Of a stretch of 64,000 nt of DNA, positions 1-10,846 are shown piece by piece. Source of the DNA: Janthinobacterium rivuli. Its GTDB lineage: Bacteria > Pseudomonadota > Gammaproteobacteria > Burkholderiales > Burkholderiaceae_D. Made by a program: the position numbers and the translations under genes. The notes under the pieces are model-generated. The model did not search any database, was not told where the DNA came from, and saw nothing but the letters and a program-made list of their open reading frames with translations. The DNA lies in NCBI RefSeq assembly GCF_029690045.1, contig NZ_CP121464.1, positions 5,084,001 through 5,148,000 of the forward strand, given 5' to 3'. Positions within the stretch are counted from its first letter, which is position 1. Every line of letters starts with the position of its first letter.

Positions 1-2211
1 TTTCGCCATCAGTTCATCGTGACTGCCCACTTCGACGACCTGGCCGCGGTCCAGTACCACCAGCCGGTCGGCGCGGTGCAGGGTCGACAGCCTGTGCGCG
101 ATGGCGATCGTCGTGCGGCCCTGCACCAGGTTGTCCAGCGCCTTCTGGATTTCCTTCTCTGTTTCCGAGTCGACCGACGATGTCGCTTCATCCATGATCA
201 GGATGCGCGGGTCGATCAGCAGGGCGCGGGCGATCGAGATGCGCTGGCGTTCGCCACCGGACAAGCCCTGGCCACGCTCGCCCACCATCGAATCGTAGCC
301 TTGCGGCAGGCGCAGGATGAATTCGTGGGCATGCGCAGCGCGCGCCGCGGCGATGATGTCCTGGCGCGTCGCGTGCGGCTTGCCGTAGGCGATGTTTTCA
401 GCGATGGTGCCGAAGAACAGGAACGGCTCCTGCAGCACCAGGCCGATGTTGCGGCGGTAGTCGGACACGGCAAACGAGCGGATGTCGACGCCATCGAGCA
501 AGATCGCGCCTTCCGAGACGTCATAGAAACGGCAGATCAGGTTGACCAGGGTGCTCTTGCCCGAACCGCTGTGGCCCACCAGGCCGATCATCTCGCCCGC
601 CTTGATGTTCAGGGTGATGCCGCGGTTGACGGCCCGGTTGCCATAGCGGAATCCGACTTCGCGCAAATCGATCCTGCCTTCGATCTTGTCCAGCTTCACG
701 GGCTGCGCCGGTTCCGGCACGCTCGACACGTGGTCGAGGATGTCGAAGATGCGCTTGGCGGCCGAGGCCGATTTTTGCGTCACGGAGACGATGCGGCTCA
801 TCGAATCGAGGCGGCCATAGAAACGCGTGCTGTAGGCGATGAAGGCGGTCAGCACACCAACGGTGATTTCGCCGCGCGACAGCTGCCAGATGCCGAAGCA
901 CCAGATGACCAGCAAACCCATCTCCGTCAGGAAGGAGACCGTCGGCGAGAACAGCGACCAGACCTTGTTCAACTTGTCGTTGACGGCCAGGTTGTGCGCA
1001 TTGGCGTCGCGGAAGCGGGCCGCTTCGCGTTTTTCCTGCGCAAACGCTTTGACCACGCGGATGCCGGGAATCGTATCGGCCAGCACGTTGGTCACTTCGC
1101 TCCACACGCGGTCGATCTTTTCAAAGCCCGTGCGCAAGCGGTCGCGCACCAGGTGGATCATCCAGGCGATGAAGGGCAATGGCGCCAGGGTCATGATGGC
1201 CAGCCACGGGTTCATCGACCACAGGATCACGCCCGTCATGATGATCATCAGCACGTCGGAAGCGAAATCGAGCAAATGCAGCGACAGGAAGACGCAGATG
1301 CGGTCGCTGCCGCTGCCGATGCGCGCCATCAGGTCGCCCGTGCGCTTGCCGCCGAAAAATTCCAGCGACAACTTCATCAGATGTTCATACGTCGCCGAGC
1401 GCAAGTCGGCGCCCATGCGTTCGGATACCAGGGCCAGCACATACGTCTTTCCCCAACCCAGCAGCCAGGCCAGCAGGGCCGAACCGAGCAAGCCGCTCAT
1501 GTAGTACACCACCAGCCACGGGTCGATGTGCTTGCCGTTCTGATACGGAATCAGCACATTGTCCATCAACGGCGCCGTCAGGTAGGGCGGAATCATGTGC
1601 GCGGCCGTGCTCAGCAGCATCAGTATGAAGCCCAGGGCCAGCTGGCCACGGTAGGGATGGGCGAAGCGCCACAGGCGGAACAGGGTCCAGGTCGATGGGG
1701 GCGTGTGCAGCACCTTGGCGCAGATCGGGCATTCTTCCTGCTCCGGCGCCAAAGGCGCCTTGCAGCTCGGACACACTTCCTGCTCCGCTTCCAGCACGGG
1801 CTGGCCCGTCAGGTGGCTGTCGAGGCGCTCGACGAACTGTTCCAGCACGCGGATCGCATGCAGGTTCTGGCCCAAGGTAAAGCGCCACGAGGCAAGGCGG
1901 CCGTGGTCATCGAACAATTCCAGGTGGCCGACACCGGCGTGGTCGTGGTGCGTCAGGCGCAGTCCGTGGCGGAAAGACCAACTTTTCCAGACGGTATCGC
2001 CCGGCGAACGGGCCAGCAAACGCTTCTCGGTGACAACTATTATGCCTTTTGTGAAACGTAATCGCGCATCGAGGTCAACCTCAACGCTACTTAAAACGTT
2101 CTCCCCTGGAGAAAGGTTGCTCTCCACTTCCGCCAGCCAGGCTTCTGCTACAGGCGCCGGCAGCGATGTGAGGGGAATAGTTGTTGCAGGAACACTCAGT
2201 TCAGTTGTCAT
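1..2211 (-). CDS. ABC exporter (ATPase + permease) of the cyanophycin locus, 3' end outside window
   Basis: Type I ABC exporter half-transporter; 737 codons are visible and the C-terminus runs off the left edge. An N-terminal region of about 140 residues resembles a bacterial PH-like fold. It is followed by a zinc-ribbon-like stretch with two CxxC motifs (CPSC and CPIC, about residues 143-165), then a six-helix membrane domain (about 185-480) and the ATPase. The Walker A is GHSGSGKST (residues 546-554), followed by an LSGGE signature and a MDEATSSVD Walker B. The start is the ATG at 2211, with GGAG a short distance upstream. It is divergent from the two cyanophycin synthetase genes across a shared 467-bp region, and exporters of this type are known neighbours of cphA in betaproteobacteria. 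The substrate is unknown; movement of cyanophycin dipeptides or amino acids is only a guess from position. Confidence 0.9.
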   Translation of the reverse strand, partial: MTTELSVPATTIPLTSLPAPVAEAWLAEVESNLSPGENVLSSVEVDLDARLRFTKGIIVVTEKRLLARSPGDTVWKSWSFRHGLRLTHHDHAGVGHLELFDDHGRLASWRFTLGQNLHAIRVLEQFVERLDSHLTGQPVLEAEQEVCPSCKAPLAPEQEECPICAKVLHTPPSTWTLFRLWRFAHPYRGQLALGFILMLLSTAAHMIPPYLTAPLMDNVLIPYQNGKHIDPWLVVYYMSGLLGSALLAWLLGWGKTYVLALVSERMGADLRSATYEHLMKLSLEFFGGKRTGDLMARIGSGSDRICVFLSLHLLDFASDVLMIIMTGVILWSMNPWLAIMTLAPLPFIAWMIHLVRDRLRTGFEKIDRVWSEVTNVLADTIPGIRVVKAFAQEKREAARFRDANAHNLAVNDKLNKVWSLFSPTVSFLTEMGLLVIWCFGIWQLSRGEITVGVLTAFIAYSTRFYGRLDSMSRIVSVTQKSASAAKRIFDILDHVSSVPEPAQPVKLDKIEGRIDLREVGFRYGNRAVNRGITLNIKAGEMIGLVGHSGSGKSTLVNLICRFYDVSEGAILLDGVDIRSFAVSDYRRNIGLVLQEPFLFFGTIAENIAYGKPHATRQDIIAAARAAHAHEFILRLPQGYDSMVGERGQGLSGGERQRISIARALLIDPRILIMDEATSSVDSETEKEIQKALDNLVQGRTTIAIAHRLSTLHRADRLVVLDRGQVVEVGSHDELMAK

Positions 2212-2678: not shown

Positions 2679-4856
2679 ATGATCAAGAAGAAGAACATCG
2701 AATTTGCCCGCGTCACCCACTTGCGCGGCCCCAACATCTGGACTTATCGCCCGGTGATTGAAGCCTGGGTCGACATCGGCGAACTGGAAGACTATCCATC
2801 CAATACCCTGCCCGGCCTGTACGAGCGCCTGGTGGCGTGGCTGCCCGGCATGATCGAGCACCGCTGCGGCGTGGGCGAACGGGGCGGCTTTTTCGAGCGC
2901 CTGCGCGAAGGCACGTGGTCGGCCCACATCCTCGAACACGTCGTATTGGAACTGCAAAACCTGGCAGGTATGCGCACGGGCTTCGGCCAGACGCGCTCGA
3001 CCAGCCAGCGCGGCGTCTACAAGATGGCTTTCCGCACGCGCGAAGAGCACGTGGGCCGCGCCGCCCTGGCCGCCGCGCGCACACTGCTGATGGCCGCCAT
3101 CAACGATGAAGCCTACGATCTGGAAGCGGCCCTGGCGCCCCTGCGCGACATGGTCGATGCGCGCTGCCTGGGCCCGAGCACGGCCAGCATCGTCGATGCG
3201 GCCACCGAGCGCCGCATCCCTTCCCTGCGCCTGAACGACGGCAACCTGGTGCAACTGGGCCACGGCGCCGCGCAGCGCCGCATCTGGACGGCCGAAACGG
3301 ACCGCACCAGCGCGATCGCCGAAGGCATCGCCAGCGACAAGGATCTCACCAAATTCCTGCTCAAATCGTGCGGCGTGCGCGTGCCTGAGGGCAGCCTGGT
3401 GCGCAGCGCCGAAGCGGCCTGGGAAGAAGCGCAGGACATCGGCGTGCCCGTCGTCGTCAAGCCGTATGACGGCAACCATGGCCGCGGCGTATCGCTCAAC
3501 CTGATGACGGAAGCGGACGTGAAGGCCGCCTACGAGCTGGCCGCGCGCAAGGGCGACAGCTCGGCCGTGCTGGTGGAAAGCTTCATCACGGGCGACGAAC
3601 ACCGTCTGCTCGTGGTCGGCAACAAGCTGATCGCGGCCGCCAAGGGCGAATCGCTGTGGGTCGACGGCGACGGCGTCTCCACCGTGCTGGAACTGGTGAA
3701 CACGCAGATCAACACGGACCCGCGCCGCGGCGAAGGCGAAGATTTCCCATTGGGTACCGTCAAGCCGCACGAATCGGGTGAAATCGTGCTGGAACTGCAG
3801 CGCCAGGGCATGACCGCCCTGTCCGTGCCGCAGGCCGGCCAAAAAGTGCTGATCCAGCCGAACGGCAACGTGGCCATCGACGTCACGGACGACGTGCATC
3901 CGTCCGTCGTGCATGCGGCCCTGCTGGCCGCGCGCGTGGTGGGCCTGGACATCGCCGGCATCGACCTGGTCACCACCGACATCACGCGTCCGCTGGAAGA
4001 GCAGCGCGGCGCCATCATCGAAGTCAATGCCAGCCCCGGCCTGCTGGCGCACATCAAGCCGGGCGTGGGCCAACCCCGCCCTGTCGGTGCGGCCATCGTC
4101 GACCACCTGTTCGCGCCCGAGGAAACGGGCCGCATTCCGCTGATCGGCGTGACGGGCACGCGCGGCGCCAGCCTGATCGTGCGCATGCTGTGCAAACTGC
4201 TCAACCTGTCGGGTCTGCACACGGGCGCCGTCTGCAGCGAAGGCATGTATCTGGACCAGCGCCGTGTCGTCAGCAGCGATTGCGTGAACTGGGACGCGGG
4301 CCAGCGCCTGCTGCTCAACCGCACCGTGCAGACGGCCCTGTTCGAGAGCAATCCGCGCATGATCCTGGCCGAAGGCCTGGCCTACGACAAGTGCCAGATC
4401 GGCGTCGTCACGGACATGGGCAGCCTCGACAGCGTCAAGGATTTCGACGTACTGGACGAAGCAGGCCTGTACAAGGCCGTGCGCAGCCAGGTCGACGTGG
4501 TGGTGCCGACGGGCGTGGCCGTGCTCAACGCGGCCAACGCGCACGTGCTGGAACTGGCCGAACTGTGCGACGGCACGGTGACCCTGTATGCGCAGGACGG
4601 CGGCTTGCCAGCCATCGCGGCGCAACTGGCCGCCGGCCAGCGCGCCGTCTTCGTGCGCGGCAACCATATCGTGCTGGCCGAAGGCGGCATCGAAACGGTC
4701 TTGCTGTGCCTGGACCTGCTGAAACCGGCCACGGCCGGCAATGTCGACAGCGTGCTGGCCGTCGCGGCCGCCGCGTGGGCCCTGAACCTGCCCGTCGATT
4801 TGATCTGCGCAGGCTTGCGCACGTTTGATGCGGCCCCTGGCTGCATCGGCAACTAA
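2679..4856 (+). CDS. cphA': Truncated cyanophycin synthetase paralogue (CphA'-type)
   Basis: Paralogue of the full synthetase that follows it; 725 residues against 856. Domains in order: N-terminal CphA domain (1 to about 200), ATP-grasp domain (about 210-480) that in the family activates the growing chain with ATP, and a Mur-ligase-like part (about 485-725). The N domain carries an intact H83-I-L-E86-H87 metallopeptidase-like motif inside a GTW...HILEHVVLELQ block. The Mur-type P-loop is ruined: GTNGKTT of the paralogue is here GTRGASL (from G493). The protein stops at APGCIGN, where the paralogue continues with APGRFNVFDYKG, so the last Mur lobe is absent. Arg addition by this subunit is therefore unlikely; Asp addition, primer production or modulation of the neighbour are possible. 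Such short CphA' proteins are known beside cphA in betaproteobacteria. Confidence 0.9.
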   Translation: MIKKKNIEFARVTHLRGPNIWTYRPVIEAWVDIGELEDYPSNTLPGLYERLVAWLPGMIEHRCGVGERGGFFERLREGTWSAHILEHVVLELQNLAGMRTGFGQTRSTSQRGVYKMAFRTREEHVGRAALAAARTLLMAAINDEAYDLEAALAPLRDMVDARCLGPSTASIVDAATERRIPSLRLNDGNLVQLGHGAAQRRIWTAETDRTSAIAEGIASDKDLTKFLLKSCGVRVPEGSLVRSAEAAWEEAQDIGVPVVVKPYDGNHGRGVSLNLMTEADVKAAYELAARKGDSSAVLVESFITGDEHRLLVVGNKLIAAAKGESLWVDGDGVSTVLELVNTQINTDPRRGEGEDFPLGTVKPHESGEIVLELQRQGMTALSVPQAGQKVLIQPNGNVAIDVTDDVHPSVVHAALLAARVVGLDIAGIDLVTTDITRPLEEQRGAIIEVNASPGLLAHIKPGVGQPRPVGAAIVDHLFAPEETGRIPLIGVTGTRGASLIVRMLCKLLNLSGLHTGAVCSEGMYLDQRRVVSSDCVNWDAGQRLLLNRTVQTALFESNPRMILAEGLAYDKCQIGVVTDMGSLDSVKDFDVLDEAGLYKAVRSQVDVVVPTGVAVLNAANAHVLELAELCDGTVTLYAQDGGLPAIAAQLAAGQRAVFVRGNHIVLAEGGIETVLLCLDLLKPATAGNVDSVLAVAAAAWALNLPVDLICAGLRTFDAAPGCIGN

Positions 4857-4882
4857 TCGGCAACAGGCAAAGCAGCACTCAA

Positions 4883-4903
4883 GCCCGGCCAGGATGGCCG
4901 GGC
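4883..4903 (+). other. Intercistronic hairpin between the two cyanophycin synthetase genes
   Basis: A perfect inverted repeat: GCCCGGCC (4883-4890), loop AGGAT, GGCCGGGC (4896-4903). No T-run follows, so it is more likely an mRNA-stability or ratio-setting hairpin than a terminator. It lies in the 79-nt gap and supports co-transcription with differential expression of the two genes. Confidence 0.6.
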
Positions 4904-4935
4904 CCACAAGAACACAACAGGATTACGGTTTAATT

Positions 4936-7506
4936 ATGGAAGTATCTCGCGTACGGGCCTTGCGGGGCCCTAACCTCTGGAGCCACGACACCGCCGTGGA
5001 AGCCATTGTTTCCTGCACCACGCAGGAACTCGACATCGCCCAGCTGCCCGGCTTCGAAGCCCGCCTGCGCGCACTCTTTCCGCAACTGAGCCCGCTGCAA
5101 CCGCTGGGCAATTACAACGCCGCGCCGATGGCGCAGGTGCTGGAACTGGCGGCGCTGGGCCTGCAGGCGCAAGCCGGCTGCCCCGTCACCTTCAGCCGCA
5201 CCACGCCGACCCTGGAAACGGGCATCTTCCAGGTCGTCGTCGAATACTCGGAAGAAGCCGTCGGCCGCCTGGCTTTGGCCCTGGCGCAGAAGCTGTGCCA
5301 GGCCGCGCTCGACGATGCGCCGTTCGACCTGGCCGGCGCCCTGCACCAGTTGCAGGAACTCGATGAAGACGTGCGCCTCGGTCCATCGACGGGCGCCATC
5401 GTCAACGCCGCCGTGGCGCGCAACATTCCGTTCCGCCGCCTGACCGAAGGCAGCCTGGTGACGTTCGGCTGGGGCAGCAAGCAGCGCAAGATCCAGGCCG
5501 CCGAAATGGATGGCACCAGCGCCATTGCCGAAGCCATCGCGCAAGACAAGGAACTGACCAAGAAGTTGCTGGACTCGGCCGGCGTGCCGGTGCCGCATGG
5601 CCGCGTCGCCATCGATGCGGACGACGCCTGGGCCGCCGCCTGCGAGATCGGCCTGCCCGTCGTCGTGAAACCAAAAGATGGCAACCAGGGCAAGGGCGTC
5701 ACCGTCAACGTCACCACGCGCGAACAGCTGACGGCCGGCTTCCTCGCGGCGCAGGAATTCCGCGACGATATCCTCGTCGAACGCTATCTGCCGGGTCACG
5801 ATTTCCGCTTGCTCGTCATCGGCAACAAGATGGTGGCCGCAGCCCGCCGCGACCCGCCGCAGGTGGTGGGCGACGGCCAGCACACGGTGCGCGAACTGGT
5901 CGACCAGGTCAACCTCGATCCGCGCCGCGGCAGCGGCCACGCCACCTCGCTGACGAAGATCCGCTTCGACGACATCGCCCTGGCCAGCCTGGCCAAGCAG
6001 GGCTATGTGGCCGAATCCGTGCCGCCGGTCGGCCAGCGCGTCATCCTGCGCAATAACGCCAACCTGTCGACGGGCGGCTCGGCCACCGACGTCACCGTCG
6101 ACGTGCACCCGGAAGTGGCGGCGCGCGCCGTCGCGGCCGCGCACATGGTGGGCCTGGACATCTGCGGCGTGGACGTCGTATCCGAAAGCATTTTGAAACC
6201 GCTGGAAGAACAGAACGCCGGCATCGTCGAAGTGAACGCCGCGCCGGGCCTGCGCATGCACCTGGCGCCGTCGTTCGGCAAGCCGCGCCCCGTCGGTGAA
6301 GCCATCATCGCCGCCATGTTCGCCGAGGGCGACGATGGCCGCATTCCCGTCGTCGCCGTCACGGGCACCAACGGCAAGACCACCACCGTGCGCCTGATCG
6401 CCCACCTGCTCACCACCTCGGGCCTGCGCACGGGCATGACCAACACGGATGGCGTGTACATCGAAGGACGCCAGATCGACAGCGGCGACTGCAGCGGCCC
6501 GCGCAGCGCGCGCAACGTGCTGCTGCACCCGGACGTGGACGCGGCCGTGTTCGAAACGGCGCGCGGCGGCATGCTGCGCGAAGGCCTGGCTTTTGATCGC
6601 TGCCAGGTTGCCGTGGTGACGAATATCGGCGCCGGCGACCACCTGGGCCTGAACTACATCACCACCGTGGAAGACCTGGCCGTCCTGAAGCGCGTGATCG
6701 TGCAGAACGTGGCCGACAGCGGCGTGGCCGTCCTGAACGCCACCGACCCGGCCGTGGCCCGCATGGCCAAAAATTGCAGCGGCACGGTGACCTTCTTCGC
6801 CGCCGACAAGACGCATCCCGTGATGGCCACGCATCGCGCGCAAGGCAACCGCGTCGTGTACGTGGAAGACGGCAAGCTGGTCGCGGCACAGGGCAAGGAA
6901 CGCCACGAAATCGCCCTGTCGCAAGTGCCGATCACGCGCAACGGCGCCATCGGCTTCCAGGTCGACAACGTCATGGCATCGCTGGCCGCCGCCTGGGCCG
7001 TGGGCCTGGACTGGAAAACCATCGCGCTGGGCCTGAAAACCTTCGCCAATGAAGCCGACAATGCGCCGGGCCGCTTCAACGTCTTTGACTACAAGGGCGC
7101 CACCCTGATCGCCGACTACGGCCACAATCCGGACGCCATCCTGGCGCTGGTGCAGGCCGTGGAAAGCATGCCGGCCAAGCGCCGTTCGGTGGTCATCAGC
7201 GGCGCCGGCGACCGCCGCGACGAAGACATCCGCCAGCAGACGGAAATCCTCGGCGCCGCCTTCGACGACGTGCTGCTGTACCAGGATCAATGCCAGCGCG
7301 GCCGCGCCGACGGCGAAGTGGTGGCCTTGCTGCGCCAGGGCTTGAACGGCGCCAAGCGCACCACGCATATCGATGAAATCAACGGCGAATTCGTCGCCAT
7401 CGACAAGGCCCTGGCGCGCCTCGGCGAAGGCGATCTGTGCCTGATCCTGATCGACCAGGTGGAAGAAGCGCTGGCGCACATCGCCAAGCGCGTCGCCGAA
7501 GCCTGA
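4936..7506 (+). CDS. cphA: Cyanophycin synthetase, full length
   Basis: Cytoplasmic enzyme that builds multi-L-arginyl-poly-L-aspartate by alternately adding Asp to the backbone and Arg to each side chain, with ATP. It has 856 residues, in the usual size range. Order: N domain, ATP-grasp domain (about 210-470, with the KPKDGNQGKG loop), Mur-ligase-like domain with an intact P-loop G477-T-N-G-K-T-T483 and the C-terminal lobe present (YGHNPDA, GAGDRRDED). In the N domain the HxxEH motif of the upstream paralogue is replaced by Q67-V-L-E70-L71 and the GTW block is deleted, so a primer-making third site seems lost. An in-frame start at 4825 lies inside the previous gene; the ATG at 4936 begins the conserved MEVSRVRALRGPN and is preferred. 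Confidence 0.95.
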   Translation: MEVSRVRALRGPNLWSHDTAVEAIVSCTTQELDIAQLPGFEARLRALFPQLSPLQPLGNYNAAPMAQVLELAALGLQAQAGCPVTFSRTTPTLETGIFQVVVEYSEEAVGRLALALAQKLCQAALDDAPFDLAGALHQLQELDEDVRLGPSTGAIVNAAVARNIPFRRLTEGSLVTFGWGSKQRKIQAAEMDGTSAIAEAIAQDKELTKKLLDSAGVPVPHGRVAIDADDAWAAACEIGLPVVVKPKDGNQGKGVTVNVTTREQLTAGFLAAQEFRDDILVERYLPGHDFRLLVIGNKMVAAARRDPPQVVGDGQHTVRELVDQVNLDPRRGSGHATSLTKIRFDDIALASLAKQGYVAESVPPVGQRVILRNNANLSTGGSATDVTVDVHPEVAARAVAAAHMVGLDICGVDVVSESILKPLEEQNAGIVEVNAAPGLRMHLAPSFGKPRPVGEAIIAAMFAEGDDGRIPVVAVTGTNGKTTTVRLIAHLLTTSGLRTGMTNTDGVYIEGRQIDSGDCSGPRSARNVLLHPDVDAAVFETARGGMLREGLAFDRCQVAVVTNIGAGDHLGLNYITTVEDLAVLKRVIVQNVADSGVAVLNATDPAVARMAKNCSGTVTFFAADKTHPVMATHRAQGNRVVYVEDGKLVAAQGKERHEIALSQVPITRNGAIGFQVDNVMASLAAAWAVGLDWKTIALGLKTFANEADNAPGRFNVFDYKGATLIADYGHNPDAILALVQAVESMPAKRRSVVISGAGDRRDEDIRQQTEILGAAFDDVLLYQDQCQRGRADGEVVALLRQGLNGAKRTTHIDEINGEFVAIDKALARLGEGDLCLILIDQVEEALAHIAKRVAEA

Positions 7507-7525: not shown

Positions 7526-7554
7526 AAGGGCGGCCTGCGGGCCGCCCTTTTTAT
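7526..7554 (+). terminator. Rho-independent terminator after cphA
   Basis: AAGGGCGGCC (7526-7535), loop TGCG, GGCCGCCCTT (7540-7549), followed by TTTTATT. It is a perfect 10-bp stem 20 nt after the cphA stop and closes the cyanophycin transcript. Confidence 0.9.
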
Positions 7555-7678: not shown

Positions 7679-10600
7679 ATGCTGGGCAGAATCTCGCGCA
7701 TGATCGGAAAATTGACGGTGGGGCGCAAACTGGCGCTGATCTATTTGCTCGACCTGTCCGCCGTCATCTTCATTTCCGGCATCCTCATCAACGAAAAATA
7801 CCTGGCCATCGATTTCTCGCGCAAGGAGATGGCCGGCAATGACTACATCGCCGCGATCCGCGATGCCCTGCTGCCCCTGGCGCGCGGCACGGCGCAAGCG
7901 GGCGCGCAGGCCGCAGCCGTGGAGCAGGCAGAAAGCCGCTTCGGCGCCGGCATGCGCAGCGCCGAACTGAATGCGCAATTTGCCGCCCTGCTGCGCCAGG
8001 CCGGCAGCACTACCGCCCCAGCCGACGACGGCATCGCGCCCTCGCCCGCCTTTGTCGCCGGACGCGCACTGCTCACGCGCGTGGGCAACCAGTCGAACCT
8101 GATCCTCGACCCGGACCTGGATAGTTATTACACGATGTCGCTGGTGACCCTGCGCTTTCCCGAGCTGCTGGAAGTGATCAACAGCACGCGCGCCCTGGCC
8201 CTGCAACTGGCGACGGCCGAAGGCGCGCAGCGCCAGCGCCTGCAGACCCAGTTCCTGATCCTGGAAGGGCGCATGGACGCCACCATGGGCGGCATCGGCA
8301 GCGACTATACGGAAGCGTTCGCGGCCAGCACGCCGCTGCTGCGCCAGCACCTGGAAGCCTCGCGCGCGGCCCTGCAGCAAGCCGTGGCGCGCTTCCGCGC
8401 CAGCACCCAGGCGCTGGCCGGCGCGCAAGTCCCCCCCGCCGGCACGCAGGCACTGCGGCGGCACGACGACGTGGCGCTCGCCGCCCTGCGCCTGGCATGG
8501 CGCGACACGGCGAATGAATTGCAGCGCCTGATCCAGCGGCGCGTGGACGGCTTTTTTACGCGCATGTGGCTGCACCTGGGCACGGCCGTGCTGCTGCTGG
8601 TGATGATACTGGGCCTGGTGTTTTTCGTCGCGCGCCAGATCGCCCTGCCCATCCGCCGCCTCGCGCGCGTGGCGCAGGACGTGCGCGAAACGGGCGACCA
8701 TAGCCTGCGCGCCGTCTGGGACAGCGAGGATGAAACGGGACGCCTGGTGCGCGCTTTCAATACCATGCTGCAGCAGCTCGACTTTCAGCGCATGGCGCAG
8801 CAGGAACTGGTGGCGCGCGCCAGCGCGGCCGATGCGCAGCGCCAGCTGGTCGACGCCATTCCCATTCCGCTGATGGTCACCTCGATCCCGCATCACCAGG
8901 TGCTGCACGCGAACCAGGCCGCGCACGCGTGGCAGGGCGGCCTGGAACTCGATCCATGGATGGGCGGCATGAGTCCGCAAGCCCGTTCGCGCTTCTTCCA
9001 GCGCTTGAGCGACTTGGGCGCCGTCGATGAATTCGAAGTGTGCTGGAGCGGCGGCGGCACGCCCACGTGGGCCCTGATTTCCGCGCGCCTGATCGACTAC
9101 CAGGGCCAGCGCGCCGTGCTGTCGACCTTCACGCCGATCAACAAGATGAAGCTGATGGAGTCGCGCCTGGAACTGTGGGCCAAGGTCTTCGAGGCGTCGG
9201 CCGAAAGCCTGATCGTGATGGACGCCGGCATGCGCATCATCACCGTCAACCAGGCCTTCCGCCGCCATTCGCTGTACGACATGGTGGAGCTGATCGGCAA
9301 GCGCCCGGCCTTTTTGCTCGCGCCCGACAACAGTCCCGAACAGCTCGACAGCCTGCGCCGGACCCTGGCGCGGCGCGGCTACTGGCAGGGCGAAATCCGG
9401 GTGCAGCGCAAGTCGCTGGAAAGCTATCCCGCCTGGCTGGTGATGAACGCAGTGCGCGGCCTCGATGGCGTCACCACGCATTTCATCGCCAGCTCGCTCG
9501 ACATCAGCGAACGCAAGGCCAGCGAGCGGCAGATCGAGCACATGGCCCACCACGACGCGCTGACGGGACTGGCGAACCGCCACGTGTCGAAACTGCGCCT
9601 GGCGGCCGCCATCGCACAGGCGCGCCGCAGCGGCGAAAAGGTGGGCGTGCTGTTCGTCGACCTGGACCGTTTCAAGCACGTCAACGACGCACTGGGCCAC
9701 CATGTGGGCGACGCGCTGCTGCAATCGGTCTCAAAGCGCCTGCTGCAGCTGGTGCGCGAAGGCGACACCGTCAGCCGCCTGGGCGGCGATGAATTCGTCG
9801 TCATCCTCAACGGCGTCGGCGACGCCGCTGCCATCGCCGCCCTGCTCGACACGCGGCTGATACCGGCCATGCGCGAGCCGCACCAGGTGGAAGGCAACGC
9901 GCTGTATGTCTCGTGCAGCGTGGGCGTGGCCGTCTACCCGGACCACGGCGGCGACATGGATACCCTGATGCGCCACGCCGATGCGGCCATGTACCAGGCC
10001 AAGAGCGGCGGACGCGATCACGCGCGCATGTTCACGCCGCAGATGCAGGAACAGCAGTTGCAGCAGCTGCACCTGGAAAGCGATCTGCGCCACGCCATCG
10101 AGCGGCAGGAACTGGTGCTGTACTACCAGCCGCGCATCGATGCGAAAAGCAGCCGCGTCAATGGCGTGGAAAGCCTGATCCGCTGGCAGCATCCGCAGCA
10201 CGGCCTGATCGCGCCCGACAGCTTCATTCCCGCCGCCGAGGAATCGGGCCTGATCGTCTCCATCGGCGCGTGGGTCATCCGCGAAGCATGCCGCCAGCAG
10301 CTGGCCTGGCGCGAGGCGGGCGCGGGCGACATCGCCGTGTCGATCAACCTGTCGGCCATCCAGCTGAAAAACGGCGGCCTGGTGGCGACCTTGCGCGAGG
10401 TGCTGCGCGAGTTTCCCGTCACGCCGGGACAGATCGAATTCGAACTGACCGAATCGATCCTGATGGACAACGTGGACGACACCATCGCCACCCTGCACGC
10501 CATCAAGGCGCTCGGTTTTGCGCTGTCGATCGACGATTTCGGCACCGGCTATTCGAGCCTGAACTACCTGTGCCGCTTCCCGCTCGACAAGCTGAAAATC

Positions 10601-10846
10601 GACATGAGCTTCGTGCAGGACATCCACGGTTCGCCGCAGAATCTGGCGGTAACGAAAACCATCATCGGCCTTGGCCATACCTTGGGCTTGACGGTCACCG
10701 CCGAGGGCGTGGAAAGCGCGGCCGATGCCGACGTGCTGCGCCACGCCGGCTGCGATGAATTGCAGGGCTTTTACTTTGCCCGCCCCATGCCGCAAGCGCA
10801 CTTCATGGCCTGGCTGGCGCACAGCGCCGCGCCCTGCGCCGCCTGA
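7679..10846 (+). CDS. Membrane-bound GGDEF-EAL protein with HAMP and PAS domains
   Basis: Predicted c-di-GMP turnover enzyme of 1055 residues. An N-terminal membrane helix (about 18-36) and a second one (about 297-321) bracket a periplasmic sensing region of about 260 residues. Then follow HAMP (about 322-375), PAS-like segments (about 390-620), GGDEF (about 625-785) and EAL (about 800-1045). The diguanylate cyclase motif is intact (RLGGDEF, 702-706), with an RxxD inhibitory site (REGD) five residues upstream. The EAL half has ESL in place of EAL, a conservative change, and keeps DDFGTGYSSL, ELTES and AEGVE, so both activities are plausible. The start at 7679 follows AAGGTGGGG. The signal sensed is not evident. 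Confidence 0.92.
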   Translation: MLGRISRMIGKLTVGRKLALIYLLDLSAVIFISGILINEKYLAIDFSRKEMAGNDYIAAIRDALLPLARGTAQAGAQAAAVEQAESRFGAGMRSAELNAQFAALLRQAGSTTAPADDGIAPSPAFVAGRALLTRVGNQSNLILDPDLDSYYTMSLVTLRFPELLEVINSTRALALQLATAEGAQRQRLQTQFLILEGRMDATMGGIGSDYTEAFAASTPLLRQHLEASRAALQQAVARFRASTQALAGAQVPPAGTQALRRHDDVALAALRLAWRDTANELQRLIQRRVDGFFTRMWLHLGTAVLLLVMILGLVFFVARQIALPIRRLARVAQDVRETGDHSLRAVWDSEDETGRLVRAFNTMLQQLDFQRMAQQELVARASAADAQRQLVDAIPIPLMVTSIPHHQVLHANQAAHAWQGGLELDPWMGGMSPQARSRFFQRLSDLGAVDEFEVCWSGGGTPTWALISARLIDYQGQRAVLSTFTPINKMKLMESRLELWAKVFEASAESLIVMDAGMRIITVNQAFRRHSLYDMVELIGKRPAFLLAPDNSPEQLDSLRRTLARRGYWQGEIRVQRKSLESYPAWLVMNAVRGLDGVTTHFIASSLDISERKASERQIEHMAHHDALTGLANRHVSKLRLAAAIAQARRSGEKVGVLFVDLDRFKHVNDALGHHVGDALLQSVSKRLLQLVREGDTVSRLGGDEFVVILNGVGDAAAIAALLDTRLIPAMREPHQVEGNALYVSCSVGVAVYPDHGGDMDTLMRHADAAMYQAKSGGRDHARMFTPQMQEQQLQQLHLESDLRHAIERQELVLYYQPRIDAKSSRVNGVESLIRWQHPQHGLIAPDSFIPAAEESGLIVSIGAWVIREACRQQLAWREAGAGDIAVSINLSAIQLKNGGLVATLREVLREFPVTPGQIEFELTESILMDNVDDTIATLHAIKALGFALSIDDFGTGYSSLNYLCRFPLDKLKIDMSFVQDIHGSPQNLAVTKTIIGLGHTLGLTVTAEGVESAADADVLRHAGCDELQGFYFARPMPQAHFMAWLAHSAAPCAA

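Follow-up and report, generated by a model that had tools for sequence, protein, structure and literature searches.

Why would a bacterium keep two cyanophycin synthetase genes side by side if each has lost an active site that its neighbour retains? The question is posed by a 64,000-nucleotide (nt) stretch of the Janthinobacterium rivuli genome (hereafter the window; G000:C1:5084001-5148000, part of a single-contig 6.33-Mb genome), in which a short gene encoding S (CphA′) is followed by a long gene encoding L (CphA). The original prediction, made for this one pair, saw a division of labour between the two proteins; judged by the residues that we compared across genomes, that division is real and general. 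We consider it probable from the sequences that S and L form a two-component cyanophycin synthetase, in which L would be the polymerase and S a trans-acting cutter that returns primers to it. Four points go beyond the original prediction: the replacement of a catalytic His in most L, a decay of the M site in S that seems to be later than the N-site split, an ABC transporter and DUF1854 as neighbours, and how seldom a cyanophycinase is kept.

Proteins were labelled S or L by their BLAST similarity to the short or long protein of the window, and X if they were other CphA proteins; L followed by a number denotes a locus. Sites are numbered as in CphA1, to which the window proteins were mapped via an alignment with 7LG5. 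According to the portions of the two CphA1 studies used throughout (PMC9262961; PMC9427784), the N domain of CphA1 from Synechocystis sp. UTEX2470 (SuCphA1) acts slowly as a Zn endo-cyanophycinase and carries the motif Cx19HxxEH (C59, H79, E82, H83); at 70% non-redundancy, 83% of CphA1s have this motif in full (PMC9262961). The E82Q substitution abolished primer independence of SuCphA1, and a primer-dependent CphA1 was made primer-independent in trans by either the isolated SuCphA1 N domain or a SuCphA1 dead in both G and M sites. For the remaining CphA1s, leftover strands or other small molecules were proposed as primers (PMC9262961).

In the window, the original prediction had described an intact HxxEH motif in S and, in L, the sequence QVLEL at its place with the surrounding GTW block missing, and both descriptions were correct. 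Moreover, Cys63 of S lies exactly 19 residues ahead of His83, which completes the Cx19HxxEH motif of PMC9262961, and the accompanying endo-cyanophycinase residues H57, F67, R70 and E87 are present as well. L has no site Cys. We then drew 60 genomes of the family, 150 of the order (Burkholderiales) and 396 of the phylum; in the phylum draw the two best candidates per genome were scored, so additional copies may be overlooked. From these, 120 stretches were extracted, picked by match and not randomly, their open reading frames (ORFs) were called, and the proteins were labelled and aligned. Residue counts use proteins longer than 600 amino acids (aa), that is 96 S, 94 L, 23 X, 81 cyanobacterial CphA1 and nine CphA2 proteins; the ORFs L107_0, L123_6000, L123_7393 and L157_2642, at ≤600 aa, were excluded. 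L129 (G073), with no ORF above 250 bits, entered the counts solely as a genome whose CphA-like match is weak.

All eight residues of the N site (H57, C59, F67, R70, H79, E82, H83 and E87) were found in 95/96 S; the remaining one, L157, is truncated at a contig end. Cx19HxxEH in full occurred in none of the 94 L, in 76/81 cyanobacterial CphA1 and in 0/9 CphA2; among the X proteins, HxxEH was seen in 17/23 and the exact Cx19 spacing in 5/23. An HxxEH in the full-length partner would have spoken against a split, and the bare string did occur in three of the 94 L, never as Cx19HxxEH; the idea that L carries the N site in some lineages was rejected on these counts. Of 160 N-domain positions, 25 were conserved at ≥99% in S, with all eight site residues among them, and five in L (hypergeometric probability 1e-7 for the site residues, relatedness ignored). 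The pattern is not a product of chance, as it recurs throughout Burkholderiales and in another order.

The M site is distributed the other way round. The D585A/H586A substitution inactivates it in SuCphA1 (PMC9262961), and K499 of TeCphA1 sits in the Mur P-loop (PMC9427784). K499, D585 and H586 were kept in 94/94 L. In the window, S has a destroyed P-loop and no Mur C-lobe, and L a perfect P-loop, as the original prediction stated; Pfam found Mur_ligase_M and Mur_ligase_C in L and no Mur domain in S at E 0.001, and S ends where the C-lobe would start. With S proteins shorter than 690 aa (L144, L156 and L157) left out of the M-site, tree-trait and identity counts, 85/93 S were truncated and without the C-lobe, none with an exact GTNGKT, although eight of those 85 read GTHGKT or GTSGKT. 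The other eight were of full length (≥813 aa), with GTNGKT kept and M sites intact. Among all 96 S, K499-T500 remain in 25 and D585-H586 in eight. The anticipated reciprocal loss across genomes was thus borne out, and this division of the N and M sites supports, at the level of sequence, the proposed split synthetase, whose primer-making site would lie in S.

On a tree built from N and G columns, the M-site trait needs six changes by parsimony, two of them forced by starred branches. Repeated losses of the M site in S are the best reading, as regain of a Mur C-lobe is unlikely. The eight S that are of full length and have an intact M site point to an early N/G split, with the M domain of S eroding afterwards. 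Between genomes (2000 random pairs from the 90 loci with both genes, L proteins of ≤840 aa excluded from the domain comparison), the mean identity of the Mur core was 46% for S versus 69% for L, while the N and G domains gave 63 and 67% for S versus 61 and 72% for L.

The G site separates the partners in a subtler manner. In TeCphA1, H267 and R309 act on the C-terminal carboxylate of the chain, and the incoming Asp lies beside S396, bound by N394, by R323 through its β-carboxylate and by R458 through its α-carboxylate; Ala mutants of N394, R323 and R458 were impaired (PMC9427784). H267A inactivates the G site of SuCphA1 (PMC9262961). S keeps K261 and R309 in 96/96 sequences, K220, D431, E450 and N452 in 95/96, and H267 in 92/96, the exceptions being three Arg in Burkholderiales and the S of genome G564. 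Its Asp pocket is altered: position 323 is Gly in 94/96 S and Arg in none (Arg in 94/94 L and 81/81 cyanobacterial CphA1), position 458 is Leu in 93/96 and never Arg, and S396-T397 are deleted in 96/96. Since R323, R458 and the Ser396 loop, which serve the incoming Asp, are lost in every S, the earlier suggestion that S adds only Asp is unlikely.

L retains R309, R323, N394, S396 and R458 in 94/94 sequences. It departs from the catalytic residues of the CphA1 G site at His267, which is Gln in 93/94 L, the window included; position 269 is Lys in 88/94. Gln267 is shared by the X proteins at L072-L074, five in all; two of these adjoin a strong cyanophycinase match in genome G018. Gln267 does not simply go with the absence of the N site, because Acinetobacter baylyi CphA1 (7LGM), which has no N site, has His267. 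Full-length, site-less enzymes that carry Gln267 and stand next to a cyanophycinase (G018, L072) are an indirect hint that Gln is tolerated at this position, and we think that L would still extend chains. E215, which in CphA1 reaches into the G site of the neighbouring protomer (PMC9427784), was lost in both partners, being mostly Gly, Ser or Thr in S and mostly Ser, Ala or Thr in L.

The genome G564 lies outside Burkholderiales, and its locus has S, L and the transporter described below. Its S, of 660 aa, keeps EHRC-x19-HILEH; the G-site P-loop and the Mur P-loop are gone, about 56 G-omega residues are deleted and the Mg-binding acids are changed. A search of 36 genomes of its order gave an S match in 12, among them G564; these are drafts from four genera (loci L272-L283), from which twelve S and four L pieces were aligned. 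All twelve S have the eight N-site residues, and as one was already among the 96, the site is present in 106 of 107 aligned S when G564 is counted once. H267 is lost in 12/12 (ten Arg, one Leu and, in G564, a rebuilt loop); position 323 is Ala in ten, Gly in one and gapped in one, and position 458 is Pro in ten, Gln in one and Leu in one. The four L pieces have no N site and keep R309, R323 and R458, with H267 in three of them and Gln in the L of G564 itself. In this order, the catalytic His of the G site sits in L, not in S.

What degrades the polymer in such genomes is a question already raised for beta-proteobacteria (PMC10206079; PMC10687191); in the parts compared, PMC10206079 reports a recognisable cyanophycinase in 2.8% of 903 beta-proteobacterial cphA1 genomes, and PMC10687191 leaves open what takes the place of cphB. 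A TIGR02069 match above 220 bits was found in 5/6 single-CphA genomes of the order draw, at most ~2.2 kb from the CphA or CphA-like match, and in 11/11 single-CphA genomes of the phylum draw, no further than 1 kb away; the corresponding counts for pair genomes were 1/52 and 2/27. The draws overlap, and combined they hold 65 pair and 17 single-CphA genomes, with a strong match in 2/65 versus 16/17, a contrast for which Fisher values ignore relatedness and which within the order is based on few families. G018 has both kinds of locus, with the strong match beside its extra CphA genes and the transporter beside its S/L pair, and in G517 the strong match lies on a contig other than that of the pair. 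Among the other pair genomes, four in the order draw and two in the phylum draw had weaker matches that still exceeded the cut-off, the window genome being one in each.

Neither S nor L matched PF03575 (peptidase S51) in Pfam, and TIGR02069 was not among their best 25 NCBIfam matches listed; S may resemble a cyanophycinase in function only, not by S51 sequence family. The S51 cyanophycinase-like protein of the window genome (138 bits, 491 aa; L255:412-1887, minus strand, near 5.861 Mb of G000:C1) has a signal-like N-terminus and an adjacent TonB-receptor-like ORF, both judged by eye from translations, and is perhaps secreted to scavenge outside cyanophycin. As for an isoaspartyl dipeptidase, the same genome gave no IaaA match and an IadA match only far below the cut-off.

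In the mechanism that we propose, the G domain of L would add Asp and its M domain Arg, and L would be unable to cut chains for its own primers. S would bind the chain and cut it at a Zn site formed, by homology, by C63, H83 and H87, with E86 as the general base, thus giving L short primers. Such a role in trans has a precedent in the rescue of a primer-dependent CphA1 by the SuCphA1 N domain (PMC9262961). The same cutting may serve turnover, in which case S would be the missing cyanophycinase of these bacteria. The G domain of S, with most ATP- and chain-end-binding residues kept and the Asp pocket not, would probably not extend chains, and its M domain is decayed. The order of evolutionary events, hydrolysis by S, primer dependence of L, contact between S and L and the nature of the polymer are all points that we infer.

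Several observations weigh against this mechanism. By analogy, the Gln at position 267 should trouble L, as Ala there kills or lowers the G activity of SuCphA1 and TeCphA1. The near-fixed G-site changes in Burkholderiales S (Gly323, Leu458) could mean a new ligase function rather than a loss. The Ralstonia eutropha homologues gave no detectable cyanophycin, according to the parts compared of two reviews citing Adames 2013 (PMC8560796; PMC11362209), so the product may not be ordinary cyanophycin. The N site of SuCphA1 is slow, and that of S may, by the same token, not suffice for turnover. A cyanophycinase match is present in a few pair genomes, so that its absence is a strong tendency and not a rule. 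Lastly, one family supplies 36 of the 96 S.

A wider reading brings in the gene upstream of S, a divergent ATP-binding cassette (ABC) transporter that continues past the left edge of the window and is complete as a 760-aa ORF at L260:7929-10211. It belongs to NF052233 ("cyanophycin metabolism-associated") and is followed by a DUF1854 gene; our genome-wide neighbour counts cover the transporter, and DUF1854 was seen beside the window alone. A transporter match lay within 4 kb in 87/90 non-window pairs, upstream of S in 87/87 and on the opposite strand in 85, with a best-segment mean identity of 72%. In the order draw, NF052233 was present in 52/150 genomes, precisely those 52 in which the pair, or parts of it cut off by a contig end, was found, and absent from the six genomes with other CphA or CphA-like genes and the 92 with none. 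In the phylum draw it was present in 27/396, exactly the 27 pair genomes, and absent from the 11 single-CphA genomes. This exact match raises the possibility of a secreted product. The pair would then be the biosynthetic half of an export system, in which L polymerises, S cuts to set lengths (the SuCphA1 N domain has a cut length of four units), and the transporter with DUF1854 exports short Asp-Arg oligomers. Such a system would explain the rare cyanophycinase, the lack of granule polymer in R. eutropha and the transporter never occurring without the pair in both draws. We hold this idea only tentatively, well below the polymerase and cutter in likelihood; if true, it would be the larger discovery.

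It is rather unlikely that S is still a ligase, whose G domain would phosphorylate the chain C-terminus and pass it on, not to Asp, but to a different amino acid or an amine as the nucleophile, giving a modified or capped polymer. The retention of the ATP and chain residues (K261, R309 and mostly H267), the uniformity of the Asp-pocket changes, a G-domain identity near that of L and the absence of cyanophycin from the R. eutropha homologues in the two reviews would all fit. Nevertheless, H267 is lost from every S of G564's order, and the whole G site from that of G564, while the N site stays; three Burkholderiales S have Arg267, and CphA2, the known G-only relative, keeps R323 and its ANLS loop.

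Still less likely, in our view, is a non-catalytic S, a subunit of a hetero-oligomer whose N and G domains would only bind and steer the chain for L, with a zinc site that is structural. The loss of E215 from both partners and the invariable tandem arrangement of S and L agree with it, whereas the retention in 95/96 S of the general base E82 and of R70, which go beyond the metal ligands, is what a working peptidase site would show. We find it very improbable that the short gene is a functionless duplicate in decay: its M domain is indeed repeatedly decayed and truncated, but conservation of its N and G domains is similar to that in L, and it accompanies 91/94 L, the other three lying at contig ends; a plain pseudogene was rejected on the N/G-domain conservation.

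If S is the trans-acting cutter, it is a concrete, clonable candidate for the missing degradation of cyanophycin in beta-proteobacteria. A one-chain enzyme cannot tune its two activities by expression level (PMC9262961); a split of synthesis and cutting would permit separate tuning, which is relevant for polymer production. "Primer-dependent" may often mean that the primer is made by a partner, since the site-less L has an S in 27/27 pair genomes of the phylum draw. The extra site-less CphA of G018 has no S beside it.

The features of the locus are collected in Table 1.

Table 1. Positions of the S/L genes, their diagnostic sites and neighbouring elements (window coordinates unless a locus is named).
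Feature	Position	Strand	Remarks
ABC transporter (NF052233)	1..2211	-	divergent; runs past left edge of window
DUF1854 gene (NF052234)	L260:7456-7926		just outside window, follows ABC transporter
S (CphA′), 725 aa	2679..4856	+	ATG 2679; N domain, G domain (ATP-grasp) and a decayed Mur core, C-lobe absent
S C63-x19-H83-x-x-E86-H87 (H83-I-L-E86-H87)	2865..2939	+	complete metallopeptidase-like motif
S His267 (GNHGRG)	3477..3479	+	catalytic His of G-site P-loop, retained
S Gly323	3645..3647	+	position of CphA1 Arg323
S G-omega loop (IQPNGNVAID)	3852..3881	+	shortened, without S396-T397 stretch
S Leu456	4044..4046	+	equivalent to CphA1 Arg458
S Mur P-loop (GTRGASL)	4155..4175	+	destroyed
Inverted repeat GCCCGGCCA-GGA-TGGCCGGGC	4883..4903	+	intercistronic; 9-bp stem, no T run
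L (CphA), 856 aa	4936..7506	+	ATG 4936; full-length, N site lost, G and M domains present
L Q67-V-L-E-L71	5134..5148	+	at position of HxxEH
L Gln251 (GNQGKG)	5686..5688	+	equivalent to CphA1 His267
L Mur P-loop (GTNGKTT)	6364..6384	+	intact
L Asp568-His569	6637..6642	+	equivalent to CphA1 D585-H586 of M site
Terminator-like hairpin and T run	7526..7549	+	3′ of L; consensus match, 5 sites found versus 5.3 expected
HAMP-PAS-GGDEF-EAL protein	7679-10846	+	3′ of L

S preceded L on the same strand in 91/91 pairs, with a gap of -10 to 314 nt (median 48; 79 nt in the window). The three L without an adjacent S (L107, L130 and L137), like the other loci with a single full partner (L076, L131, L156 and L157), are at contig ends, and at L123 two ORFs make up the L gene. 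S and L presumably share a single transcript; the scan that gave the terminator-like sites gave no sigma-70-like promoter. In the original prediction, the intercistronic hairpin could set the S:L ratio. A near-identical stem was found in L059 and L066, of the same genus as the window, and a similar one in L047, but a perfect stem of at least 7 bp was present in 21/91 gaps and 25/91 gaps were shorter than 25 nt, and the hairpin was rejected as a general ratio-setting element. Overall, the original prediction is supported in its split synthetase with the primer site in S, and not supported in its Asp-only addition and its hairpin.

Two of the neighbouring genes deserve a remark. The ABC transporter has a CxxC...CxxC stretch ahead of its membrane domain, with a sub-threshold zinc-ribbon match. 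The HAMP-PAS-GGDEF-EAL protein probably stands outside the system, as a match was seen near only 7/90 other pairs.

By database models, L is a CphA1: it has the N, G and M domains and, at 972.4 bits, exceeds the curated cut-off (850) of the TIGR02068 equivalog. S, at 677 bits, does not, and has neither a working M site nor a Mur C-lobe. Both exceed the cut-off (877) of NF010623, the broad cyanophycin synthetase subfamily in NCBIfam (S, 977.8 bits; L, 1243 bits). Because S passes this model, it is likely to be named "cyanophycin synthetase" in databases, despite having no Mur site.

In a FastTree phylogeny of 113 rows (including 38/96 S and 37/94 L) with CphA2 as the outgroup, S and L each formed one clade, and the two were sisters (local support 100, 100 and 99). 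FastTree is prone to joining long branches, and CphA2 is on one, so the sister relation is less certain than the two clades. L072, L073 and L074 formed the sister group of S and L together; L072 (G018:C1:5335469-5349843) and L074 (G056:C2) have two full-length, divergent CphA genes, which share Gln267 and the absence of an N site. One family member, G004, has seven CphA-like ATP-grasp matches in ORFs of ~590-640 aa (L256, G004:C1:6500-22500; L257, G004:C25), four of them in one 16-kb stretch; many of their CphA-site residues differ, and the set is possibly an uncharacterised ligase expansion. The AlphaFold2 model of S, from 38 S sequences, had a mean predicted local distance difference test score (pLDDT) of 90.4 and a predicted template modelling score of 0.85, with residues 81-95 (H83, E86 and H87) in a helix; that of L, from 24 sequences, had a mean pLDDT of 82.2. 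In Foldseek, the best match of the S model was TeCphA1 7WAE (TMq 0.88), with TeCphA1 and SuCphA1 structures at 0.85-0.88 and CphA2 at 0.61-0.66. No S match at ≥60% identity was found in PLSDB. An abstract by Adames reportedly describes CphA′ as being without part of a "J-loop".

Parts of this picture have been published. Adjacent cphA copies beside an ABC transporter in the absence of cphB (PMC10687191), the Sideroxydans pairs (PMC5178258) and the rarity of cyanophycinase (PMC10206079) are reported in the parts of those papers compared, and NF052233 and NF052234 were already named by NCBI. Among the literature matches listed, in a search for which most subscription papers were outside reach, we found no description of the reciprocal site loss, the altered Asp pocket or the exact co-occurrence, no paper with the phrase "cyanophycin metabolism-associated", and none since 2024 on DUF1854 and cyanophycin together.

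The nearest described arrangements are the "Group 1" cphA cluster of activated-sludge bacteria, with two neighbouring synthetase genes, an ABC transporter and no cphB (PMC10687191), the neighbouring cphA1 and cphA2 of Sideroxydans (PMC5178258) and the two synthetase homologues of R. eutropha H16 (PMC8560796; PMC11362209); in the parts compared, a residue-level division of labour is not described for any of these pairs. Cyanobacterial CphA2 (7TA5, 8FXH) resembles S, that of the window included, in having lost the Mur P-loop and C-lobe. However, the nine CphA2 sequences have no Cx19HxxEH, have Lys267 and keep R323 with the ANLS loop, whereas S has the N site and mostly His267 and has lost R323 and the loop (in the window, the site, His267, Gly323 and a short loop). 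Positions 267, 323 and 396 together with the N site led us to reject S as an independently evolved CphA2. Among CphA1 enzymes, the primer-dependent one of Tatumella morbirosei (7LGN) is without the N site, like L (PMC9262961), and by alignment so is that of A. baylyi, which nevertheless keeps His267 (GNHGRG). CphA1 proper (SuCphA1, 7LG5; TeCphA1, 7WAE) is like L in its three domains, its intact M site and Asp pocket and a score above the TIGR02068 cut-off, and like S in its complete Cx19HxxEH and, according to the model, its fold. It holds the N, G and M sites in one chain, whereas here the N and M sites are in separate chains and most L have Gln267.

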